A stretch of DNA of 64,000 nt. Source: Cytophagales bacterium. Its GTDB lineage: Bacteria > Bacteroidota > Bacteroidia > Cytophagales > Microscillaceae. The stretch's first letter is position 1, and every line of letters begins with the position of its first letter. The stretch covers positions 1 to 64,000 of the forward strand of contig JAAFJG010000005.1 in NCBI GenBank assembly GCA_013298075.1. The letters are read 5' to 3'. A program made the translations under genes and the position numbers. Shown here one piece after another: positions 9,961-33,505 of this stretch. Under the pieces are notes generated by a model. It was given only the letters and a program-made list of their open reading frames with translations, made no database searches and was not told the DNA's origin.

Positions 9961-10019
9961 AAAGTTAGTTCATAATCAATGTTTTATATCAGAATTATAG
10001 AAAAATATACAATCAAATT

Positions 10020-23340: not shown

Positions 23341-23414
23341 TTCCAAAATCTTTTTTATATTTATTTTATATTTAGCATAAAAATATTTAACTTTGCGAAA
23401 ATAAAAAGAAAAAT
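23341..23414 (+). repeat. repeated promoter segment, copy P1
   Basis: A 74-base segment from TTCCAAAATCTTTTTTATAT to the ariA start, containing the -7 box TAACTTTG (23388-23395). It is identical to 25827-25900 and nearly identical to 27011-27076 in front of lysS. Homology with the lysS copy appears to extend further upstream (TTATTTCCAAAC near 23313 and 26974). Confidence 0.9.
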
Positions 23415-24774
23415 GAAATCGAGTAAAATAAAAAAGTTCTCTGTTTATGGCTTGTTTGGAACAAGTGATGTACATATTGACTTCGAGGAGAATATAAAAA
23501 TTCTTATTGGTGAAAATGGACTTGGTAAAACTCAAGTCTTAAATCTTTTTTACTATACACTAACAAGAGATTTTTTTAAACTAAATGACTACAATTTTGA
23601 TAAACTAATTTTATGTTTCTCAAATGATAAATCAATCGAAATATCCAAAAAAAATATAACAGAGTTAGTCGAAGAAACCTATAAACACCCAATAATTATA
23701 GATATTATTGAAAATATTGGTTTTGCTCAATTTGAGGTATTACGTAATAAATTTGACCAAAATAAAGGTAAAAGTAATTGGAGAGAAATTGAAGAACAAT
23801 TTATTCCATCTAATAGTAAACTTAGACATAAGTATCCTGTCCAGAGAATATTTAGAGCATTTTTAGAACTTGAATTTGGAAACTCAAAAACAACAAGCCA
23901 AACTCTTGATAAATGTAAAAAAGAAATTGCAAACGAGATTAAAGAGGTAGACATTATGTATTTTCCAACATTTAGACGAGTCGAGGAGAATTTATATAAT
24001 TTGGGCTATGGTGAGGAAGACTTGAACTTTAATCAAGAAAATATGCTGATTCAGTTTGGTATGGATGATGTCCAAAAAAACTTCAATAAAATTGAAAATA
24101 TCATCGATAAACTTCTAAAAGAAGGCTTAGCACAATTTACCAAAGATATTCTTAGTATTGTAATTGATGACCCAACACCCACAGAAAGTATTCTCGATAA
24201 AATAACAGAAAATGATATAGAAATTATTTTATCAAGAGTTGGAAGTCTTCTTCCTGATTCACAAAAACAAGCAGTCAAAGATATTGTATTGAAAAAACAA
24301 CTTAAAAACCCTCTCTCTGCGTACCTTTTACATAAACTTGCTGATATATATGAAAAACAAAAAGAGTTAGATAATTCTATTAAAATTTTTAGAGATATAT
24401 GTAATAAATATTTGATTAACAAACAAGTATTTTACGATGAAAGTGGTATTAATATCTTCATAAAATCCGACTTGACACACGATAAAATTGAACTTAAATA
24501 CTTGTCTTCTGGCGAAAAACAAATCATTTCAATTTTTTCTAAGATATATTTATCAGACGAAAATAAAAGATTTATCGTGCTTTTTGACGAACCAGAATTA
24601 TCTCTTAGTATAATTTGGCAAAAACAACTTTTACCAGATATTATAAACTCCAAAAAATGTGATTTTTTATTGGCAGTTACTCATTCTCCATTCATTTTTG
24701 ACAATGAATTAGATGTATATGCAGTTGGTCTAAATGAATATATTAAACCCATAAAAGAAACCATTTTGTTATGA
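23413..24774 (+). CDS. ariA: AAA/ABC-type ATPase, PARIS AriA-like
   Basis: 453 residues of the RecF/SMC-like AAA ATPases found in defence systems. Walker A GENGLGKT (33-40), signature LSSGEKQ (364-370), Walker B FIVLFDEPE (Asp392, Glu393) and the switch His in VTHSPF (424) are intact. A long helical insertion separates the two halves. It overlaps the next gene by four bases (ATGA), a DUF4435 protein. In PARIS, AriA assembles around AriB and releases it when it senses phage anti-restriction proteins. Assignment rests on domain pairing, size and order; other ATPase-DUF4435 pairs exist. Confidence 0.75.
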   Translation: MKSSKIKKFSVYGLFGTSDVHIDFEENIKILIGENGLGKTQVLNLFYYTLTRDFFKLNDYNFDKLILCFSNDKSIEISKKNITELVEETYKHPIIIDIIENIGFAQFEVLRNKFDQNKGKSNWREIEEQFIPSNSKLRHKYPVQRIFRAFLELEFGNSKTTSQTLDKCKKEIANEIKEVDIMYFPTFRRVEENLYNLGYGEEDLNFNQENMLIQFGMDDVQKNFNKIENIIDKLLKEGLAQFTKDILSIVIDDPTPTESILDKITENDIEIILSRVGSLLPDSQKQAVKDIVLKKQLKNPLSAYLLHKLADIYEKQKELDNSIKIFRDICNKYLINKQVFYDESGINIFIKSDLTHDKIELKYLSSGEKQIISIFSKIYLSDENKRFIVLFDEPELSLSIIWQKQLLPDIINSKKCDFLLAVTHSPFIFDNELDVYAVGLNEYIKPIKETILL

Positions 24775-25697
24775 TAGATATAGAGCAACTGAGGGCAAGT
24801 AAAAATAAAGCACAAGTTGCTTTTCTTGAATTTGTACTTTCTATAAGAAAATATCCCAATCATTTATTTTGCTTTTTCGAAGGAAAAGATAATCCTTATT
24901 ATGTGCCAAGAATCAAACGTATTACCGAATTTTATCAACCAATAAAATGTGGTGGCAGAGATAGTATTTTGAAAGTTCACAAACTTATCTTGAATCATAA
25001 AGAATATGATAATTACAAAAAAGCCTTTTTTATTGATAAAGATTTTAATCAGCCTCTTGCACAATTAAATCCTCCTATTTTTGAAACGCCTTATTATTCT
25101 ATCGAGAATTTTTATGTTTCTGTTGATGTTTTTAAAGAAATTTTAGTCAATGAGTTTAATCTATCAGAATTTAATGATAGTAATATTTTTGAATCTTGTC
25201 TTTCTCTTTATCAACAAAGGCAAAATGAATTTCACGATGCTGTTTGTTTATTTAATTCTTGGTATGCGTGCCTAATTGAAATTAGAAACTCAACAGGAAA
25301 AACTACAGGTGTAATTTTAAATGAAAAACTACCAAGAGGTTACATTGATGTTACGCTTCAATCTGTAACTTCTAACTACAACTTTGAAACCATTAAAAGT
25401 ACATTTCTAAAAGCTACAGAAGTTGAAGAAGTTATCTTGAGTAATAAGTTAGATGACTTTGATAAGTGTGAAAAAAAATATGTTTTTAGAGGAAAGTACG
25501 AACTACAATTTTTAATAGATTTTATTAGGTTACTTTTGACTGATAGTAAAAATGAAAAAACAATTATTAACAAAAACATCAACTTTACTTTTGGCGATGC
25601 AAGTTCGATAGGACAACAGCAAGCCTTGCTTATCTTTTCTACTTATGCAGAAACTCCAGAAAATCTAATTGAATATTTACAAATGGTAACGAAGTAA
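24771..25697 (+). CDS. ariB: DUF4435 TOPRIM-like nuclease, PARIS AriB-like
   Basis: 308 residues with the DUF4435 pattern: FFEGKDNPYYVPRI (Glu37, Asp40), KCGGRDSILKVHKLI, AFFIDKDFNQ (Asp89, Asp91) and YYSIENFYV (Glu112). These acidic positions fit a TOPRIM/OLD nuclease-like active site. In PARIS the released AriB is the toxic effector, cutting host tRNA and stopping phage growth. It is translationally coupled to the upstream ATPase. The C-terminal half is helical and not further identifiable. Confidence 0.75.
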   Translation: MIDIEQLRASKNKAQVAFLEFVLSIRKYPNHLFCFFEGKDNPYYVPRIKRITEFYQPIKCGGRDSILKVHKLILNHKEYDNYKKAFFIDKDFNQPLAQLNPPIFETPYYSIENFYVSVDVFKEILVNEFNLSEFNDSNIFESCLSLYQQRQNEFHDAVCLFNSWYACLIEIRNSTGKTTGVILNEKLPRGYIDVTLQSVTSNYNFETIKSTFLKATEVEEVILSNKLDDFDKCEKKYVFRGKYELQFLIDFIRLLLTDSKNEKTIINKNINFTFGDASSIGQQQALLIFSTYAETPENLIEYLQMVTK

Positions 25698-26278: not shown

Positions 26279-26506
26279 ATGCGAACATTGCAAATAAAAG
26301 TGAGTGAAACTGACTTTCAAAGATATAACTTAGGAAGTGGAGAAATAAAGTTTACTGATTTAGTAGCGGCAGTAAGTCGTGAATATGCACGAGAAACACT
26401 TCTGGCGTGTAATAAAATTGCTGAACAAGTAGGACTTTCTAACATGACAATAGAAGAAATTAATGCTGAAATTAAAGCAGTAAGAGATGCAAAAAATAAT
26501 TCTTGA
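26279..26506 (+). CDS. antitoxin of a PIN toxin-antitoxin pair
   Basis: 75 residues, MRTLQIKVSETDFQRYNLGSGEIKFTDLVAAVSREYARETL.... A short beta strand followed by helices fits a small DNA-binding antitoxin of the kind encoded before PIN-domain toxins. Its 3' end overlaps the toxin start by 20 bases, the usual coupling in such pairs. It should neutralise the toxin and repress the pair's promoter. Confidence 0.7.
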   Translation: MRTLQIKVSETDFQRYNLGSGEIKFTDLVAAVSREYARETLLACNKIAEQVGLSNMTIEEINAEIKAVRDAKNNS

Positions 26507-26903
26507 TACAAATATTATTGTGTCTGCACTCATTTCAAATTCTATTCCAAGTAATATTTTGTACGAACTGGTACTATCTGAAAAAGTTAAAAATTATCTC
26601 TCAGAAGAGATTTTTACTGAATATGTGGAGGTATTAAACAGAGATAAATTTACCAAGTTTGTTAACTTCAAAATAAAAGCGGAAGTAGTATTAAAGAAAC
26701 TACGCGAAATCTCAATTTTCTATAAAACAGATAAAAAAATAGAAATTTTGGCTGACGCAAGTGATAACAAATTTTTAGAATTGGCTGCTGTAAGTAAGGC
26801 AGACTATTTGATAACAGGTAATACACTTACAATAACAGAGTTTGAATATACACGAATCTTGACCCCAAGAGAATATTGGGATAGTTACGCACCACGAGAA
26901 TAA
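26487..26903 (+). CDS. PIN-domain toxin (putative ribonuclease)
   Basis: 138 residues with the PIN pattern: LDTNIIVSALIS (first Asp), SEEIFTEYVEVL (Glu), ILADASDNKFLELAAVSKADYLITGN (Asp residues and the ITGN loop). These acidic residues form the Mg-dependent RNase site; the last usual TGDxDL position is TGNTLTI, one acidic residue short of some relatives. The gene overlaps its antitoxin by 20 bases. The module lies between promoter copies P2 and P3. Confidence 0.85.
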   Translation: MQKIILDTNIIVSALISNSIPSNILYELVLSEKVKNYLSEEIFTEYVEVLNRDKFTKFVNFKIKAEVVLKKLREISIFYKTDKKIEILADASDNKFLELAAVSKADYLITGNTLTITEFEYTRILTPREYWDSYAPRE

Positions 26904-27091: not shown

Positions 27092-28813
27092 ATGCAAAAA
27101 CTTAGCGACTTAGAGATTTTACGCAGACAAAAATTACAAGAATTGCGTACATTAGGCATCGAGCCTTACCCCGCACCACTTTATCCAATTACTCATAAAA
27201 GCAACGATATAAAACAAAATTTTGATACCAATCCTGACGATTTTACCTCTGTTTGTCTGGCAGGTCGTGTGATGAGCATACGCATACAAGGCTCAGCGGC
27301 TTTTGCAGAATTGCAAGATGGCGAAGGACGTATTCAAATTTATTTGCGTCGAGATGATTTATGTCCCGATGAAGACAAAACTTTGTATAATACAGTATTC
27401 AAAAAATTGGTCGATTTAGGTGATTTTTTGGGCGTAAAAGGATATGTTTTTAAAACGCAAATGGGCGAAACTACGATTCATGTAACTGAATTTACTATTT
27501 TAGCCAAATCTCTAAAACCTTTGCCTGTCGTAAAACGCGATGAAGAAGGCAATGTATATGATGAAGTTACTGATGTAGAATTTCGTTATAGACAACGTTA
27601 TGCTGATTTGATTGTCAATCCACAAATCAAAGATACATTTATCAAACGCACTAAAATTTATCAAACGATTAGAGAATATTTTAATCAATATAATTATCTA
27701 GAAGTTGAAACACCTATTTTGCAAGCAATTCCGGGTGGAGCAACTGCACGCCCATTTATTACACATCATAATGCGTTGGATATTCCTTTGTATTTGCGTG
27801 TTGCCAACGAATTATATCTCAAAAGATTGATTGTAGGCGGTTTTGAAGGCGTTTATGAATTTGCAAAAGATTTTAGAAATGAGGGAATGGATAGAACACA
27901 TAATCCTGAATTTACCGTTTTAGAATTTTATGTGGCGTATAAAGATTATATTTGGATGGCTGAATTTACCGAAAAAATGTTTGAAAAAATCGCCCTTAAT
28001 TTATATAACACGACTGAAATAAAAGTGGGTGAAAATACGATAAGTTTCAAAGCACCTTTTCGCCGTTTGACTATGTATGATGCTATTCAAGAATATGCCA
28101 AAATAGATATTTCAAATCTTGATGAAAATGGTTTGCGTGAGGCGTGTAAAACGTTGAATATTCCTACTACAACTTCGATGGGAAAAGGAAAATTGATTGA
28201 TGAAATTTTTGGAGCAACTTGTGAACATCATCTCATTCAACCAACTTTTATTACCGATTATCCTGTAGAAATGTCGCCATTAACCAAAAAACATAGAACA
28301 AAAGCAGGTTTGACCGAGCGTTTCGAGTTGATTGTGAATGGAAAAGAAATTGCAAATGCGTATTCGGAATTAAATGACCCAATAGACCAAAGAGAGCGTT
28401 TTGAGGAGCAAATGAAATTGCAACAACGTGGAGATGACGAGGCAATGTTTATTGACCAAGATTTTTTACGTGCTTTAGAATATGGTATGCCGCCTACTTC
28501 GGGCATTGGTTTTGGTATGGATAGAATTGCGATGCTTTTCACTGATTCACCTTCTATTCAAGATGTATTATTTTTCCCTCAAATGCGTCCTGAAAAAGTG
28601 GTTGAATTAGCAAAAACAGAAGATTATTTAGCTTGTGGTGTATCTGAAGCCTTAATTCCACTTTTGCAACACATGAATATTTTGACGATTGAAGATTTAA
28701 AAAAATCAAATCCTAACAAAATATTTAATGATATTGGTGGCGTAAGAAAGAAAATGAAGTTAGATAATGTAAAATTACCTACCAAAGAAGAAGTTGAAAA
28801 TTGGGTGAAATAA
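27092..28813 (+). CDS. lysS: lysyl-tRNA synthetase, class II
   Basis: 573 residues. The N-terminal OB-fold anticodon-binding domain (about 50-150; VCLAGRVMSIRIQGSAAFAELQDGEGRIQIYLRR) is followed by the class II core with motif 1 (ETPILQAIPGGATARPF), motif 2 (FRNEGMDRTHNPEFT) and motif 3 (SGIGFGMDRIAMLFTDSPSIQDVLFFPQMR). A C-terminal extension of about 60 residues (LLQHMNILTIEDLKKSNPNKIFNDIGGVRKKM) is common in Bacteroidota LysS. It charges tRNA-Lys and is intact. Confidence 0.97.
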   Translation: MQKLSDLEILRRQKLQELRTLGIEPYPAPLYPITHKSNDIKQNFDTNPDDFTSVCLAGRVMSIRIQGSAAFAELQDGEGRIQIYLRRDDLCPDEDKTLYNTVFKKLVDLGDFLGVKGYVFKTQMGETTIHVTEFTILAKSLKPLPVVKRDEEGNVYDEVTDVEFRYRQRYADLIVNPQIKDTFIKRTKIYQTIREYFNQYNYLEVETPILQAIPGGATARPFITHHNALDIPLYLRVANELYLKRLIVGGFEGVYEFAKDFRNEGMDRTHNPEFTVLEFYVAYKDYIWMAEFTEKMFEKIALNLYNTTEIKVGENTISFKAPFRRLTMYDAIQEYAKIDISNLDENGLREACKTLNIPTTTSMGKGKLIDEIFGATCEHHLIQPTFITDYPVEMSPLTKKHRTKAGLTERFELIVNGKEIANAYSELNDPIDQRERFEEQMKLQQRGDDEAMFIDQDFLRALEYGMPPTSGIGFGMDRIAMLFTDSPSIQDVLFFPQMRPEKVVELAKTEDYLACGVSEALIPLLQHMNILTIEDLKKSNPNKIFNDIGGVRKKMKLDNVKLPTKEEVENWVK

Positions 28814-28937
28814 AATTTATTTTTTTTGTAAATACTTTTGATTTTTTTTGAAAGTATTTACAAAAATGTTATTTTTTTTAAAATATATTTGTTATTTTTG
28901 CAAATATTTTTTTATAACCTTAAAAAATGATGATAAT

Positions 28938-31103
28938 ATGGAATATTATATTTCTCTTTTAGATGATACAATTAAAAATAATGTTTCTTTTATGGTTGAA
29001 GAACCTTCAATAAACATTACTTTAGATATATTTGAAAATACTAAAAGTGCAGATTTGAATATAAACAAAGTATCAGATATTATTTATAGACAATATTTGC
29101 AGATTAAAAAAATATTAGTACAAAATGAAAATAATATTATGTTCATTAATACACTAATATTATTCAAAATTGCTGATTGCTCTAAAAATAATGAAGCGTA
29201 TAAAGAAAAAATTCAAGAATTTACCAATCAAAAATATAATATTTTATTGAATAAATATGATAAAGTATTCGTTATAAATCACATCAAGGAACTAGCAATA
29301 AAATTGAGTATTGAAATAAATGATGATATAGTTGATAAAATAGTCTCTTTTATCAATCAAATGAATTTAGGATTAATTGTAAATAATTATTCTGTAAAAA
29401 TGAATAAAATACTTGGTCAAGTTTTTGAAAAAATTATTACAAAAAAAGAAATAGGTGCATATTATACAAACGAAAATACGACTAAATATATAACAGAAAA
29501 TTGTATTATTCCAAGTTTAATTTTAGAATGGGCAAACTTAGAAACTTCTTTATTTAATTACTTAGAAGACTATAAAAATGAAAATAAAATATCTCTTGTT
29601 GAATATTCGATTAAGCAAAATATTTTATTAAAAAATGTTATATTTAAACTCATAGAAAAATTTGATACATCATTATTGCTCAAATCTATTCATCAAATAA
29701 AAATTATAGATATTTCTTGTGGTTCAGGTTCGTTTATTTTTTCTTCTTATTATTTATTAAAAGAGATACTTCAAAAAATAGATTTTAAAAATAATATAAA
29801 TAATTATTCTGAAATATTTGAAAATAATATTTTTGGTATTGATATAGATATTGATGCAGTTAATATATTAAAATTTCGTATTTTTATTGAAAAATTGTTT
29901 GAGGAAAAAATGGTAAATTCTGATTACACTCGCTTAACAGATAATTTTATTATAGCAAATTCTTTACTTTATAATAAATCTCACGAAAAAAAAACATCAT
30001 TATTTGAAGTTGATAATAATAACGAAGAACCAATTTTTGAATCAAATGATAAATTAAAATATATTATTAAAAATGGAGGGTTTGACGTTGTTCTGGGTAA
30101 TCCACCTTATTTAGAATACAAAAATATTCTATCTTATAAAATTGAAAACTATAAAAGTGAAAAATGTAATAATTTATATGCCTTTATGCTCGAAAAAAAT
30201 TTTGATATTTTGAAAGAAAATGGTCACATGGGAGTGATTATACCCATATCTTATATATCAACAAAAAGAATGAAACCTATTAGAAAATATTTAATAGAAA
30301 ATTCTCAGTATCAATTTTGTTCGAATTATGCAGACAGACCTTCGTGTTTGTTTAATGGCGTGCATCAAAAATTAAATATTGTATTATTAGAAAAAAAAAC
30401 ATTACAGAATAATAAAAAAGTTTATACTACAAACTATTTACATTGGTATTCAGAAAATAAAAACAATATCTATGACGTAATTTCGTATCAAGAAAATAAA
30501 TTTGAAACAGAAGATTTTTTATTTAAAATTGGGAATGAAATAGAAGAAAATATCATTAAAAAACTTTGTTTTAATAATAATAAATCTTTATCAGAAAATA
30601 TTGGTTTTAACAAAGACTATGCGGTTTGGGTAAATATGCGTATGACTTTTTGGAATAAATCTTTTGTAAATCCGCAGAAATCAAATGAATACAAAGTATT
30701 CTATTTTGATTCAAAAGAAAATGCTGTTTTATTTTCTTTATTATTAAATTCTAATATTTTCTTTTTTTATTGGGAGTGTATTTCTGATGTTTGGCATATA
30801 ACTTTAAAGGATTTATCGCATATAAAGATTGATTTTAATGATTTTGATAATATACAAAAACAAAAAATGTTAATTCTATACCAACAATTAGAAGATAATC
30901 TTGAACTCAATAAAAGAGAAATAAATACAAAACAAACAGAGTTTGAATATCAACATAAAAAAGATAAAAAACTTATTGATAAAATCGATTTATTGTTTAA
31001 AGATTATTTCATTTTTACAGATGGAGAAATAGAATATATAAAAAATTATCAATTAAAATTTAGATTAAATGGAGAATTATCTAATTACTTAAATGAAATA
31101 TAA
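28938..31103 (+). CDS. N6-adenine DNA methyltransferase of a restriction locus (Eco57I/TaqI-like)
   Basis: 721 residues from the ATG at 28938; the open frame reaches 28848, but the -7 box TATTTTTG (28893-28900) lies inside that extension. Motif X region GAYYTNENTTKYI, motif I IDISCGSGSFIF (near 256) and motif IV GNPPY (near 388) identify a gamma-type adenine methylase. The C-terminal 250 residues are likely a target-recognition region (TLKDLSHIKIDF). It is followed after two bases by a chimeric remnant and then a McrC-like nuclease, so it was probably the protective methylase of an McrBC/LlaJI-like system. Confidence 0.85.
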   Translation: MEYYISLLDDTIKNNVSFMVEEPSINITLDIFENTKSADLNINKVSDIIYRQYLQIKKILVQNENNIMFINTLILFKIADCSKNNEAYKEKIQEFTNQKYNILLNKYDKVFVINHIKELAIKLSIEINDDIVDKIVSFINQMNLGLIVNNYSVKMNKILGQVFEKIITKKEIGAYYTNENTTKYITENCIIPSLILEWANLETSLFNYLEDYKNENKISLVEYSIKQNILLKNVIFKLIEKFDTSLLLKSIHQIKIIDISCGSGSFIFSSYYLLKEILQKIDFKNNINNYSEIFENNIFGIDIDIDAVNILKFRIFIEKLFEEKMVNSDYTRLTDNFIIANSLLYNKSHEKKTSLFEVDNNNEEPIFESNDKLKYIIKNGGFDVVLGNPPYLEYKNILSYKIENYKSEKCNNLYAFMLEKNFDILKENGHMGVIIPISYISTKRMKPIRKYLIENSQYQFCSNYADRPSCLFNGVHQKLNIVLLEKKTLQNNKKVYTTNYLHWYSENKNNIYDVISYQENKFETEDFLFKIGNEIEENIIKKLCFNNNKSLSENIGFNKDYAVWVNMRMTFWNKSFVNPQKSNEYKVFYFDSKENAVLFSLLLNSNIFFFYWECISDVWHITLKDLSHIKIDFNDFDNIQKQKMLILYQQLEDNLELNKREINTKQTEFEYQHKKDKKLIDKIDLLFKDYFIFTDGEIEYIKNYQLKFRLNGELSNYLNEI

Positions 31104-31105
31104 AA

Positions 31106-31579
31106 ATGAATGTGATAGATTTATTTTCAGGAGTTGGAGGGTTTTCGATAGGATTAAAAAATATAGGTTTTAATATTGTTGCTTTCAAAAGGCGTTGGGA
31201 TTGGGAATATGTGCCAATAGATTACATAGACGCAGAAAATCAAACTATTCAAATAACAAACAAAAAATATAGTTGGGCAATATTTTTGGAAAAAATCAAT
31301 GAAAAAATAAGTGAAATTACAGAAAGCGAAGACAAACAAATGGGAAACCGTTTTGTGAATATGGCTGATAATATCATCACAGAAGAAGTTTTAAAAAATA
31401 AAATTATGTTTTATTTGTGGTTTGATATTTTTAAAAATGAGGACAAAAAAGATAAAAACTATATTTTCAAAACCGCAGAAAAAGACTATTTTAAATATGC
31501 AGATTTGTTTCACAAAGAAAATGGCACAAAAACCCTTTTAGCATTTTTTGACTATCATAAAATATCCGAAAAATCATGA
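31106..31579 (+). pseudogene. in-frame chimera: start of a C5-cytosine methylase joined to the end of an McrB-like GTPase
   Basis: Residues 1-27 (MNVIDLFSGVGGFSIGLKNI then GFNIVAF) are the N-terminal SAM-binding motif I of a Dcm-type C5-methylase. From residue 28 (KRRWDWEYVPIDYID) onward the sequence resembles the C-terminal end of McrB/LlaJI-R1-type AAA GTPases (EDKQMGNRFVN, NKIMFYLWFDIFKNE). The methylase catalytic Cys and all McrB Walker motifs are absent. A large deletion with a junction near 31184-31190 best explains this. The product cannot have either activity. It overlaps the next gene by four bases (ATGA). Confidence 0.75.
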
Positions 31580-33237
31580 AAATATTGATAGAACAATTTG
31601 ATTATGACATCAATACGATTGAAAATCTATTGCCACAAATATTCCTCACGCTTAAGCAAAATGCAAAGGTAAGCGTGGATTTAGTGGGATATTACAATCA
31701 TTTTGAAATCAATGAAACCATTATTATTTTACCTAAAATTTTTTTGAACGAAAATAATAATTGTGTTTTTGGTAACATTCCTGTGTCGGATTTTATTACT
31801 GAAAATTCATTAGAAATTTTAAAAAATCATCAAAAATCAAACTCAGATATTGATTTTGTCTATCGTTTTGCTTTTATTTTTTACTTGTCTTTGCGTGAAT
31901 TTCAACAACGAAATTCTGATAATACTATCACAAAAGCATCAAATACCAAAAATATTATTTCTAATATTGAAAAAACAGATATAAGCGAATTGGATTTAGT
32001 TTTTAGTTTGTTGCGTTTTTATCAAGAAAATAAAGATTTGATTATTTTTAAAGAAAAAGAAACAGAAAAACAGCATTTCAAAAAAACAAATTGGACAAAA
32101 ACTACTCATAAAAAAAATCCTATTTTTCAAGATAATACGCCTATTTACACAGAAAACAACCAGAAAAACAAAACACAAGATAATGATAATCAATTATTGC
32201 GCATTTTTTTTGCGGTTTTGTATCGTTTCAAAAAACAATATAATTTTAATATTTCATTAGAAAATAAATCTATTCAAAAAATAAATCAAGATTTTGATAG
32301 AAAATCATTACAAATCTTAAAAAAAATAAAAAATCAATATTTTAGCGATAAGTTCAAAAAATTATTATTGCTTTTGATAAGTTATTTTGAAAAAAGAGAT
32401 AAAACAAGTGCAAAAGAAAGCAAAGAAGAATTTATTTTGTGTGATAATTATAACATTGTTTTTGAGGATATGATTGATAAACTTTTATCAGATAACAATG
32501 CTACTATCGAAAAAATGAAAAATCAAGATGATGGAAAAATAGTAGACCATATTTTTGAATATAAATCTTTTTTTGAGCCTGACAACATTTTTTATATTGG
32601 AGATGCCAAATATTATAAGCAAACAACGCAATATAGCAAAAATAGTATTTACAAACAACATACTTACGCCAAAAACATCATTCAATACAATATAAATCTA
32701 TTTAATGATAGTAAACCAAATAATTTGGTGCGTTATCGTGATGAACTTACAGAAGGATATAATATTACACCCAATTTTTTTATTCAAGGATATATTGACC
32801 ACCAAAATATCGCAGATTTTTCGGATAATTTTCAAAAAGATAACACCCAGAAACCAAAAATAAGTTTCCACTTTGAAAATCGTATTTTTGATAGAGATAC
32901 TTTATTTGTTTATAATTTTCGTATAAATTTTGTTTTTGTTTTACAAAGTTACATTGAAAATACAGAAAATAATCTACAAGAATTTAAAAAACACACAAAA
33001 GAAACCATCAAAAATGAAATCTATACACATATTCAACAAAAATATGATTTTTATATTTTAACGCCACAAACCAATATAAGTACATTTGTAAAAGATAATT
33101 TTAAACTTTTGAATGGAAAAATTTATCAAAATTCTAATGATAAAACGCATTTGATTTTAGGCTTGGAGAAAAATCATATTGAAAATGAAACCATTAAAAA
33201 TCAATTTAAAAATTGTATAATTCCTTACCAAAAATAA
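31576..33237 (+). CDS. McrC/LlaJI-R2-like restriction endonuclease subunit
   Basis: 553 residues. The N-terminal part is poorly conserved and Asn/Lys-rich. The C-terminal half holds a PD-(D/E)XK core, FEPDNIFYIGDAKYYK, with Asp343 and Lys345 in the GDAKYY motif, as in McrC-like nucleases. In such systems this subunit cuts DNA under control of the McrB GTPase. Here the GTPase is reduced to a fragment, so this nuclease is probably not activatable unless a partner exists elsewhere. The reading frame is intact. Confidence 0.75.
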   Translation: MKILIEQFDYDINTIENLLPQIFLTLKQNAKVSVDLVGYYNHFEINETIIILPKIFLNENNNCVFGNIPVSDFITENSLEILKNHQKSNSDIDFVYRFAFIFYLSLREFQQRNSDNTITKASNTKNIISNIEKTDISELDLVFSLLRFYQENKDLIIFKEKETEKQHFKKTNWTKTTHKKNPIFQDNTPIYTENNQKNKTQDNDNQLLRIFFAVLYRFKKQYNFNISLENKSIQKINQDFDRKSLQILKKIKNQYFSDKFKKLLLLLISYFEKRDKTSAKESKEEFILCDNYNIVFEDMIDKLLSDNNATIEKMKNQDDGKIVDHIFEYKSFFEPDNIFYIGDAKYYKQTTQYSKNSIYKQHTYAKNIIQYNINLFNDSKPNNLVRYRDELTEGYNITPNFFIQGYIDHQNIADFSDNFQKDNTQKPKISFHFENRIFDRDTLFVYNFRINFVFVLQSYIENTENNLQEFKKHTKETIKNEIYTHIQQKYDFYILTPQTNISTFVKDNFKLLNGKIYQNSNDKTHLILGLEKNHIENETIKNQFKNCIIPYQK

Positions 33238-33279
33238 TCAAATTAAGTAAAAAATTACAATTTATTTTTATATTTTAAT

Positions 33280-33432
33280 ATGTTTCATATATTCATCTCA
33301 CTAATCATACTCCTAATCAATTTTATATTGGCAAGTTATAAAGGCAATTATATTTATTCAAATATCATCGAAGGAAAAATAAATAAATCACAATTCAAAG
33401 AGTGGAATTATTTGATACAATACACAAATTAA
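33280..33432 (+). CDS. possible small membrane protein
   Basis: 50 codons, MFHIFISLIILLINFILASY followed by KGNYIYSNIIEGKINKSQFKEWNYLIQYTN. One N-terminal membrane helix and a polar tail make a plausible small protein, and it is followed directly by a strong terminator. It lies 42 bases after the McrC-like gene. No family recognised; it may be a chance frame. Confidence 0.35.
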   Translation: MFHIFISLIILLINFILASYKGNYIYSNIIEGKINKSQFKEWNYLIQYTN

Positions 33433-33440
33433 ATCATAAA

Positions 33441-33481
33441 AAAACACATAACATATTGATTATCAATATTTTATGTGTTTT
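33441..33481. terminator. strong bidirectional terminator
   Basis: AAAACACATAA (33441-33451) and ATATTGAT (33453-33460) pair with ATCAATAT (33462-33469) and TTATGTGTTTT (33471-33481). The hairpin is flanked by A and T runs between convergent genes. Confidence 0.85.
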
Positions 33482-33505
33482 GTTTTGTCAATAAAAATCT
33501 ACTAT

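Follow-up and report, generated by a model that had tools for sequence, protein, structure and literature searches.

Gene content of the locus

The window analysed here comprises 64,000 nucleotides (positions 1-64000) of contig JAAFJG010000005.1 (G000:C99) from a Cytophagales bacterium, whose draft genome (4.71 Mb in 153 contigs) is 97.9% complete. On the + strand, lysS is followed by three open reading frames of a restriction-modification (R-M) operon, P0002, P0001, and P0003, and the features of this region are as follows:

27092-28813, + strand: lysS, which precedes the R-M operon
28938-31103, + strand: P0002, intact N6-adenine methylase of the Eco57I type (721 aa; PF07669), the first surviving gene of the operon
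31106-31180, + strand: leftover start of a C5-cytosine methylase gene (residues 1-25, motif I only; PF00145 and match to genome G090), opening P0001
31179-31181, + strand: deletion junction, where the window lacks 2,533 bp present in G090 (L113 7972-10504), located by the base-by-base switch
31181-31579, + strand: leftover C-terminal end of an McrB/YdiS-like GTPase gene, in frame with the C5 start (match to G090 McrB residues 480-609), closing P0001
31190-31195, + strand: Arg-Arg finger of the McrB remnant, read from the sequence
31576-31579, + strand: ATGA overlap between the stop of the chimera and the start of the nuclease, read from the sequence
31576-33237, + strand: P0003, intact LlaJI/McrC-like nuclease (553 aa; PF09563, identity to the G090 and L014 nucleases, structure model)
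about 32545-32610, + strand: PD-(D/E)xK site (D324, D343-x-K345) within P0003

This arrangement agrees, down to the open reading frames and their coordinates, with the original prediction of a 157-codon chimera lying between an intact adenine methylase and an intact McrC-like nuclease, and the ATGA overlap said to be kept with the nuclease gene is present.

The region around the operon (28500-33500) has a GC content of 19-25%, compared with 34% in lysS and 33% in the downstream gene, a pattern as in acquired islands. At 3.2 kb upstream of the broken operon there is a PARIS-like pair (23413-25697) composed of AriA (AAA_15, PADLOC E 1e-29) and AriB (DUF4435, E 4e-37). Between this pair and lysS, a small gene overlaps the gene of a PIN_3-domain protein (26279-26903, E 2e-20), and the two are likely to represent a toxin-antitoxin pair.

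The flanking methylase and nuclease

P0002 contains an Eco57I domain (PF07669, E 2.5e-23 in Pfam) with the motifs DISCGSGSF at residue 258 and NPPY at residue 388, and it shares 63% identity over 712 aa with the methylase that occupies the equivalent place in the intact operon of G090. To judge from its sequence, the adenine methylase may still methylate alone as an orphan enzyme.

P0003 matches RE_LlaJI (PF09563, E 1.2e-8 in Pfam) and shares 59% identity with the nuclease of G090 and 60% with that of L014. Residues D324, D343, and K345 are invariant across 26 homologues, and the protein has the features of an McrC-like nuclease with a PD-(D/E)xK site. Although no PDB chain was matched at the sequence level by the alignment of the nuclease profile (A1), the fold is shown by prediction instead: the structural model resembles YdjA (9a5m_A, which is part of an integrative model and not a crystal structure) with a Foldseek probability of 1.00 and E 3e-13 (VIA Z 17.8, 397 aligned, rmsd 9.7), as well as Thermococcus McrC (6ut7_G, Z 10.3). 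The locus does not correspond to a canonical McrBC (type IV) system, given that P0003 matches RE_LlaJI and not PF10117 and that methylase genes are present in the operon.

The chimeric protein

P0001 (157 aa) is composed of 25 C5-methylase residues and 132 residues of an McrB C-terminus. Its beginning matches DNA_methylase (PF00145, residues 1-33, E 4.9e-6 in Pfam) and a PADLOC C5-methylase model (residues 1-32), whereas residues 17-112 match the LlaJI.R1-like REase_II model of PADLOC (profile positions 424-531 of 585). Compared with G090, residues 1-25 are 84% identical to the start of the C5 methylase (over 25 aa, E 3e-12) and residues 26-153 are 60% identical to residues 480-609 of the McrB-like protein (over 131 aa, E 3e-50). 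The C5 part had been described as a methylase start of 27 residues with motif I; its nature and motif stand, but V25 is the last C5 codon, and A26-F27 belong to McrB (AFKRRW).

Very little of either parent is left. From the C5 methylase only motif I is kept, since GGPPCQ and the later motifs (ENV, REAARLQ, GNAV) lie in the deleted stretch, so that the later catalytic and target-binding motifs of a C5-cytosine methylase are missing at the locus. The N-terminal domain of McrB has been lost. Its P-loop (GCPGTGKS), Walker B, and MNTSDQ loop are gone as well, none of the three being found in a motif search of the chimera, and what is kept is only the Arg-Arg finger and the lid. This Arg-Arg pair appears to be the counterpart of the pair that provides, in trans, the arginine finger and sensor II of Thermococcus McrB (PMC7680126), and the GTPase activity of McrB is reduced or abolished by Walker mutations (PMC7680126). 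We infer that the chimera can bind neither GTP nor DNA. Lacking the P-loop, Walker B, and NxxD loop of an McrB-like GTPase, the locus is a remnant and not a working member of the BsuM/LlaJI type.

In the AlphaFold2 model, residues 1-28 are predicted to be disordered (pLDDT <50), whereas most of residues 41-157 have a pLDDT of 81-97; the lid retains its conserved residues and is predicted to fold well. The only meaningful Foldseek match of this model was YdiS of Bacillus subtilis (9a5m_B, probability 1.00, E 3e-3).

An intact sister operon and the deletion

A search with P0002 against 146 relatives yielded one strong match, in G090, a member of a different family of the same order. There, locus L113 (G090:C4:52000-68000) contains, in this order, two N6/N4 methylase genes, an N6-adenine methylase (735 aa), a C5 methylase (389 aa, PF00145 9e-68), an McrB-like AAA_5 protein (609 aa), and a nuclease (566 aa), thus bearing out the proposed ancestor of adenine methylase, C5 methylase, McrB-type GTPase, and nuclease as an intact series in the same order. 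Identity between the window and G090 covers the shared parts of all four genes, at the levels given above. The McrB and nuclease genes of G090 do not overlap by ATGA as in the window but are separated by a repeat-rich insert (L113 10875-11010) with 25-nt perfect inverted repeats and two 45-nt direct copies.

Aligned with G090, the chimera spans its junction as a 2,533-bp deletion, in line with the predicted deletion origin. Base by base, the window fits the C5 side alone up to 31179 and the McrB side alone from 31180 or 31181; the switch previously placed near 31187 therefore exists, but its base-level position is 31179/31180-31181. The join is in frame, as had been proposed, the C5 start continuing into the McrB tail in one open frame. 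Because the C5 methylase and McrB genes of G090 occupy different reading frames, such a join would be about a one-in-three outcome. Short direct repeats had been suggested at the breakpoint, but a repeat search of L113 7800-11100 in G090 found none that pair the two breakpoints, and microhomology amounts to 0-1 nt when the undetermined third base of the ancestral codon is taken into account. A deletion driven by repeats and a repeat-driven collapse of the assembly are thus both unlikely.

These data also bear on the possibility that the genome has an intact operon and that the draft assembly joined two distant points. The fragmentation of the draft into 153 contigs is compatible with such an error, as is the scaffold gap of L014 at the same gene boundary, which indicates that such loci break assemblies. 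However, with breakpoints sharing only 0-1 nt and no repeat, a k-mer or overlap assembler would have no reason to join them; furthermore, there are no Ns at the junction, and the deleted stretch was not found elsewhere in the genome. We regard an artefact of this kind as unlikely. In a draft such as this one, a chimeric read or clone at the junction is a formal possibility.

Distribution and decay of the operon type

The related loci examined amounted to 94, comprising 80 genome and six viral-contig loci from a profile scan, one plasmid record, one phage record, G090, and five order-level loci. The profile (A1) was needed, as single-sequence nuclease scans of the genome and viral contigs gave no match. 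An McrB-type gene lies upstream of the nuclease in 88 of the 94 loci, and a C5 methylase is present in 68. All four McrB motifs were recognized by pattern in 78 of the 88 McrB-type genes. The remaining genes run into a contig end, are split in frame, or lack one pattern match, as in G090, whose own Walker B (EEINRGN) the pattern misses. None of the 94 loci has the start of a C5 methylase joined to the tail of an McrB. The same short chimera in other species would have pointed to a genuine conserved gene, and no related locus has one.

Within the order, the nuclease was detected in at least seven of 390 genomes, a lower bound because scoring was limited to three candidates per genome. The loci of G090 and G682 look intact, and those of G088 and G127 run into contig ends, although G088 retains most of an McrB. 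In G688, a full nuclease (within L125 7774-11589) has no McrB or C5 match within 9.9 kb upstream. All that G768 retains (L129 9754-10434) is an McrB segment (FGDIFQCLDR) fused in frame to the C-terminal portion of the nuclease, which is a second, independent collapse of this operon type. The window is thus one of three differently decayed loci among the five readable ones in the order. G688 and G768 belong to the same genus, and their losses may share an early step.

The nuclease of G688 follows an HNH_2 nuclease gene and an apparent PIN-type toxin-antitoxin pair, and in L014, an HNH_2 gene likewise adjoins a nuclease start. As a case of McrB loss, L014, the closest nuclease relative (60%), was set aside as uninformative: a scaffold gap (Ns 9989-9998) lies upstream, following the start of a second nuclease copy. 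The chimera also matched C76, which encodes an AAA ATPase of OLD-like layout, and C1; both matches were judged to be unrelated. The surroundings of lysS in the family members G009 and G012 share no flanks with the window, and an empty site could not be defined from them.

Constraint on the remaining genes

Compared with G090, the McrB remnant is 77% identical at codon positions 1+2 and 54% at position 3, and the nuclease 75% and 50%, respectively. Counting estimates against G090, which are rough because dS is near saturation, give dN 0.28 and dS 1.6 for the remnant and dN 0.31 and dS 2.2 for the nuclease. Relative-rate counts are even with most outgroups, the exception being L015, with which the window nuclease shows excess change (chi2 9.1). 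Among 77 near-invariant nuclease positions, nine are missed in the window, seven in G090, and nine in L014; these are mostly the same ones, which argues for a lineage effect and not for decay of the nuclease. Judged from these substitution patterns, constraint on the McrB remnant and the nuclease is not relaxed, without excess amino-acid change in either. Therefore, the deletion may be recent compared with the divergence from G090, or the remaining pieces may still be under constraint; both readings fit these data.

Alternatively, the chimera might be a working small protein, either a lid that binds the nuclease and holds it bound or inactive, or a leader for translation coupling, by which the nuclease would stay expressed for a new use together with the adenine methylase. 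The in-frame fusion, the retained ATGA coupling, the conserved lid residues with their predicted fold, and the lack of excess amino-acid change are compatible with such a role. On the other hand, residues 1-28 are predicted to be disordered, the protein was found in no other genome searched, sibling genomes show plain decay, and the retained conservation is equally expected after a recent deletion. We thus consider a working chimera quite improbable, and hold the same view of the specific form in which a GTPase-less McrB lid holds the nuclease inactive and the adenine methylase serves as an orphan genome regulator.

Other restriction systems in the genome

The genome yielded no further McrB of this type. 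Two separate systems were observed: an intact-looking canonical McrBC pair on C125 (L102 709-3382) and a HindVP-type R-M system with its own intact C5 methylase on C119 (L116 3891-5911). The McrBC pair could, as a speculation, exert pressure against C5 methylation, considering that McrBC is able to kill cells upon methylation of their genome (PMC2614495); however, the intact C5 methylase on C119 indicates that there is no general ban on C5 methylation in this genome.

It might also be asked whether restriction has been redirected rather than lost, with the nuclease being driven in trans by the canonical McrBC system. An intact-looking McrB and McrC are indeed available on C125, but that McrB has its own adjacent McrC and is only 39% identical, over about 150 aa, to a Pedobacter member of the nuclease-associated McrB family. 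To our knowledge, there is no known case of an exchange of McrB and nuclease partners of this kind, and we consider this the most improbable of the explanations weighed here.

Proposed course of the collapse

With high confidence, we interpret the locus as the remnant of a BsuM/LlaJI-type, McrBC-related type II R-M operon that collapsed by one illegitimate deletion of about 2.5 kb. A single event whose ends shared almost no homology would have removed most of the C5 methylase together with those parts of the McrB-like motor that bind DNA and GTP, joining the ends in frame. The nuclease would still be translated from its coupled ATGA start, yet it would be neither loaded nor driven, and restriction would be switched off, with the adenine methylase persisting as a possible orphan enzyme. 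Simultaneous loss of modification and restriction motor would avoid the self-cutting expected if the methylase alone were lost. The nuclease is probably disarmed, and restriction probably lost, because the GTPase motifs are gone and the LlaJI system depends on both of its subunits (PMC1459862); the open frame of the chimera and the predicted folding of its lid are a counterpoint, which leaves room for some residual role.

Comparison with known systems

The closest structural likeness is to BsuM (YdiS-YdjA) of B. subtilis, as YdiS and YdjA are the top Foldseek matches of the chimera and the nuclease, respectively. The window differs in that its McrB partner is cut down to the C-terminus and its operon opens with an Eco57I-type adenine methylase.

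LlaJI of Lactococcus lactis combines methylases, R1 (McrB-like), and R2 (McrC-like) in one cassette (PMC1459862), and the Pfam family RE_LlaJI matches the window nuclease. However, R1 is intact in LlaJI and is accompanied by two methylases, whereas the window has one N6-adenine methylase, a C5 stub, and no GTPase. In vivo, R1 and R2 are both absolutely required, neither alone restricting phage (PMC1459862), and by analogy the window locus should not restrict. PcaRCI of Pectobacterium carotovorum likewise contains a Dcm-like methylase, the McrB-like PcaIA, and PcaIB, which has an McrC-like domain with large extensions (PMC8989522); in contrast to the window it is intact and active, and the available portion of its description does not include an Eco57I-type adenine methylase (PMC8989522).

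The layout of an Eco57I-type N6-adenine methylase, C5 methylase, McrB, and LlaJI-like nuclease was not found described in the literature searched. The finding is chiefly ordinary decay of a known kind, a clear example of a decaying restriction system and not a new kind of system. It illustrates at good resolution how cells may survive the loss of a restriction system that protects itself, with modification and motor going in one event. Of the methylases of the operon, the N6-adenine enzyme is intact and conserved in G090, and the C5 enzyme is destroyed. The G090 operon shares four genes with the window in identical order and differs in being undeleted, in having two further N6/N4 methylase genes upstream, and in its repeat-rich insert between McrB and the nuclease. 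Together with the separate decay in G768 and G688, this sister operon would make the order of losses in the family testable.
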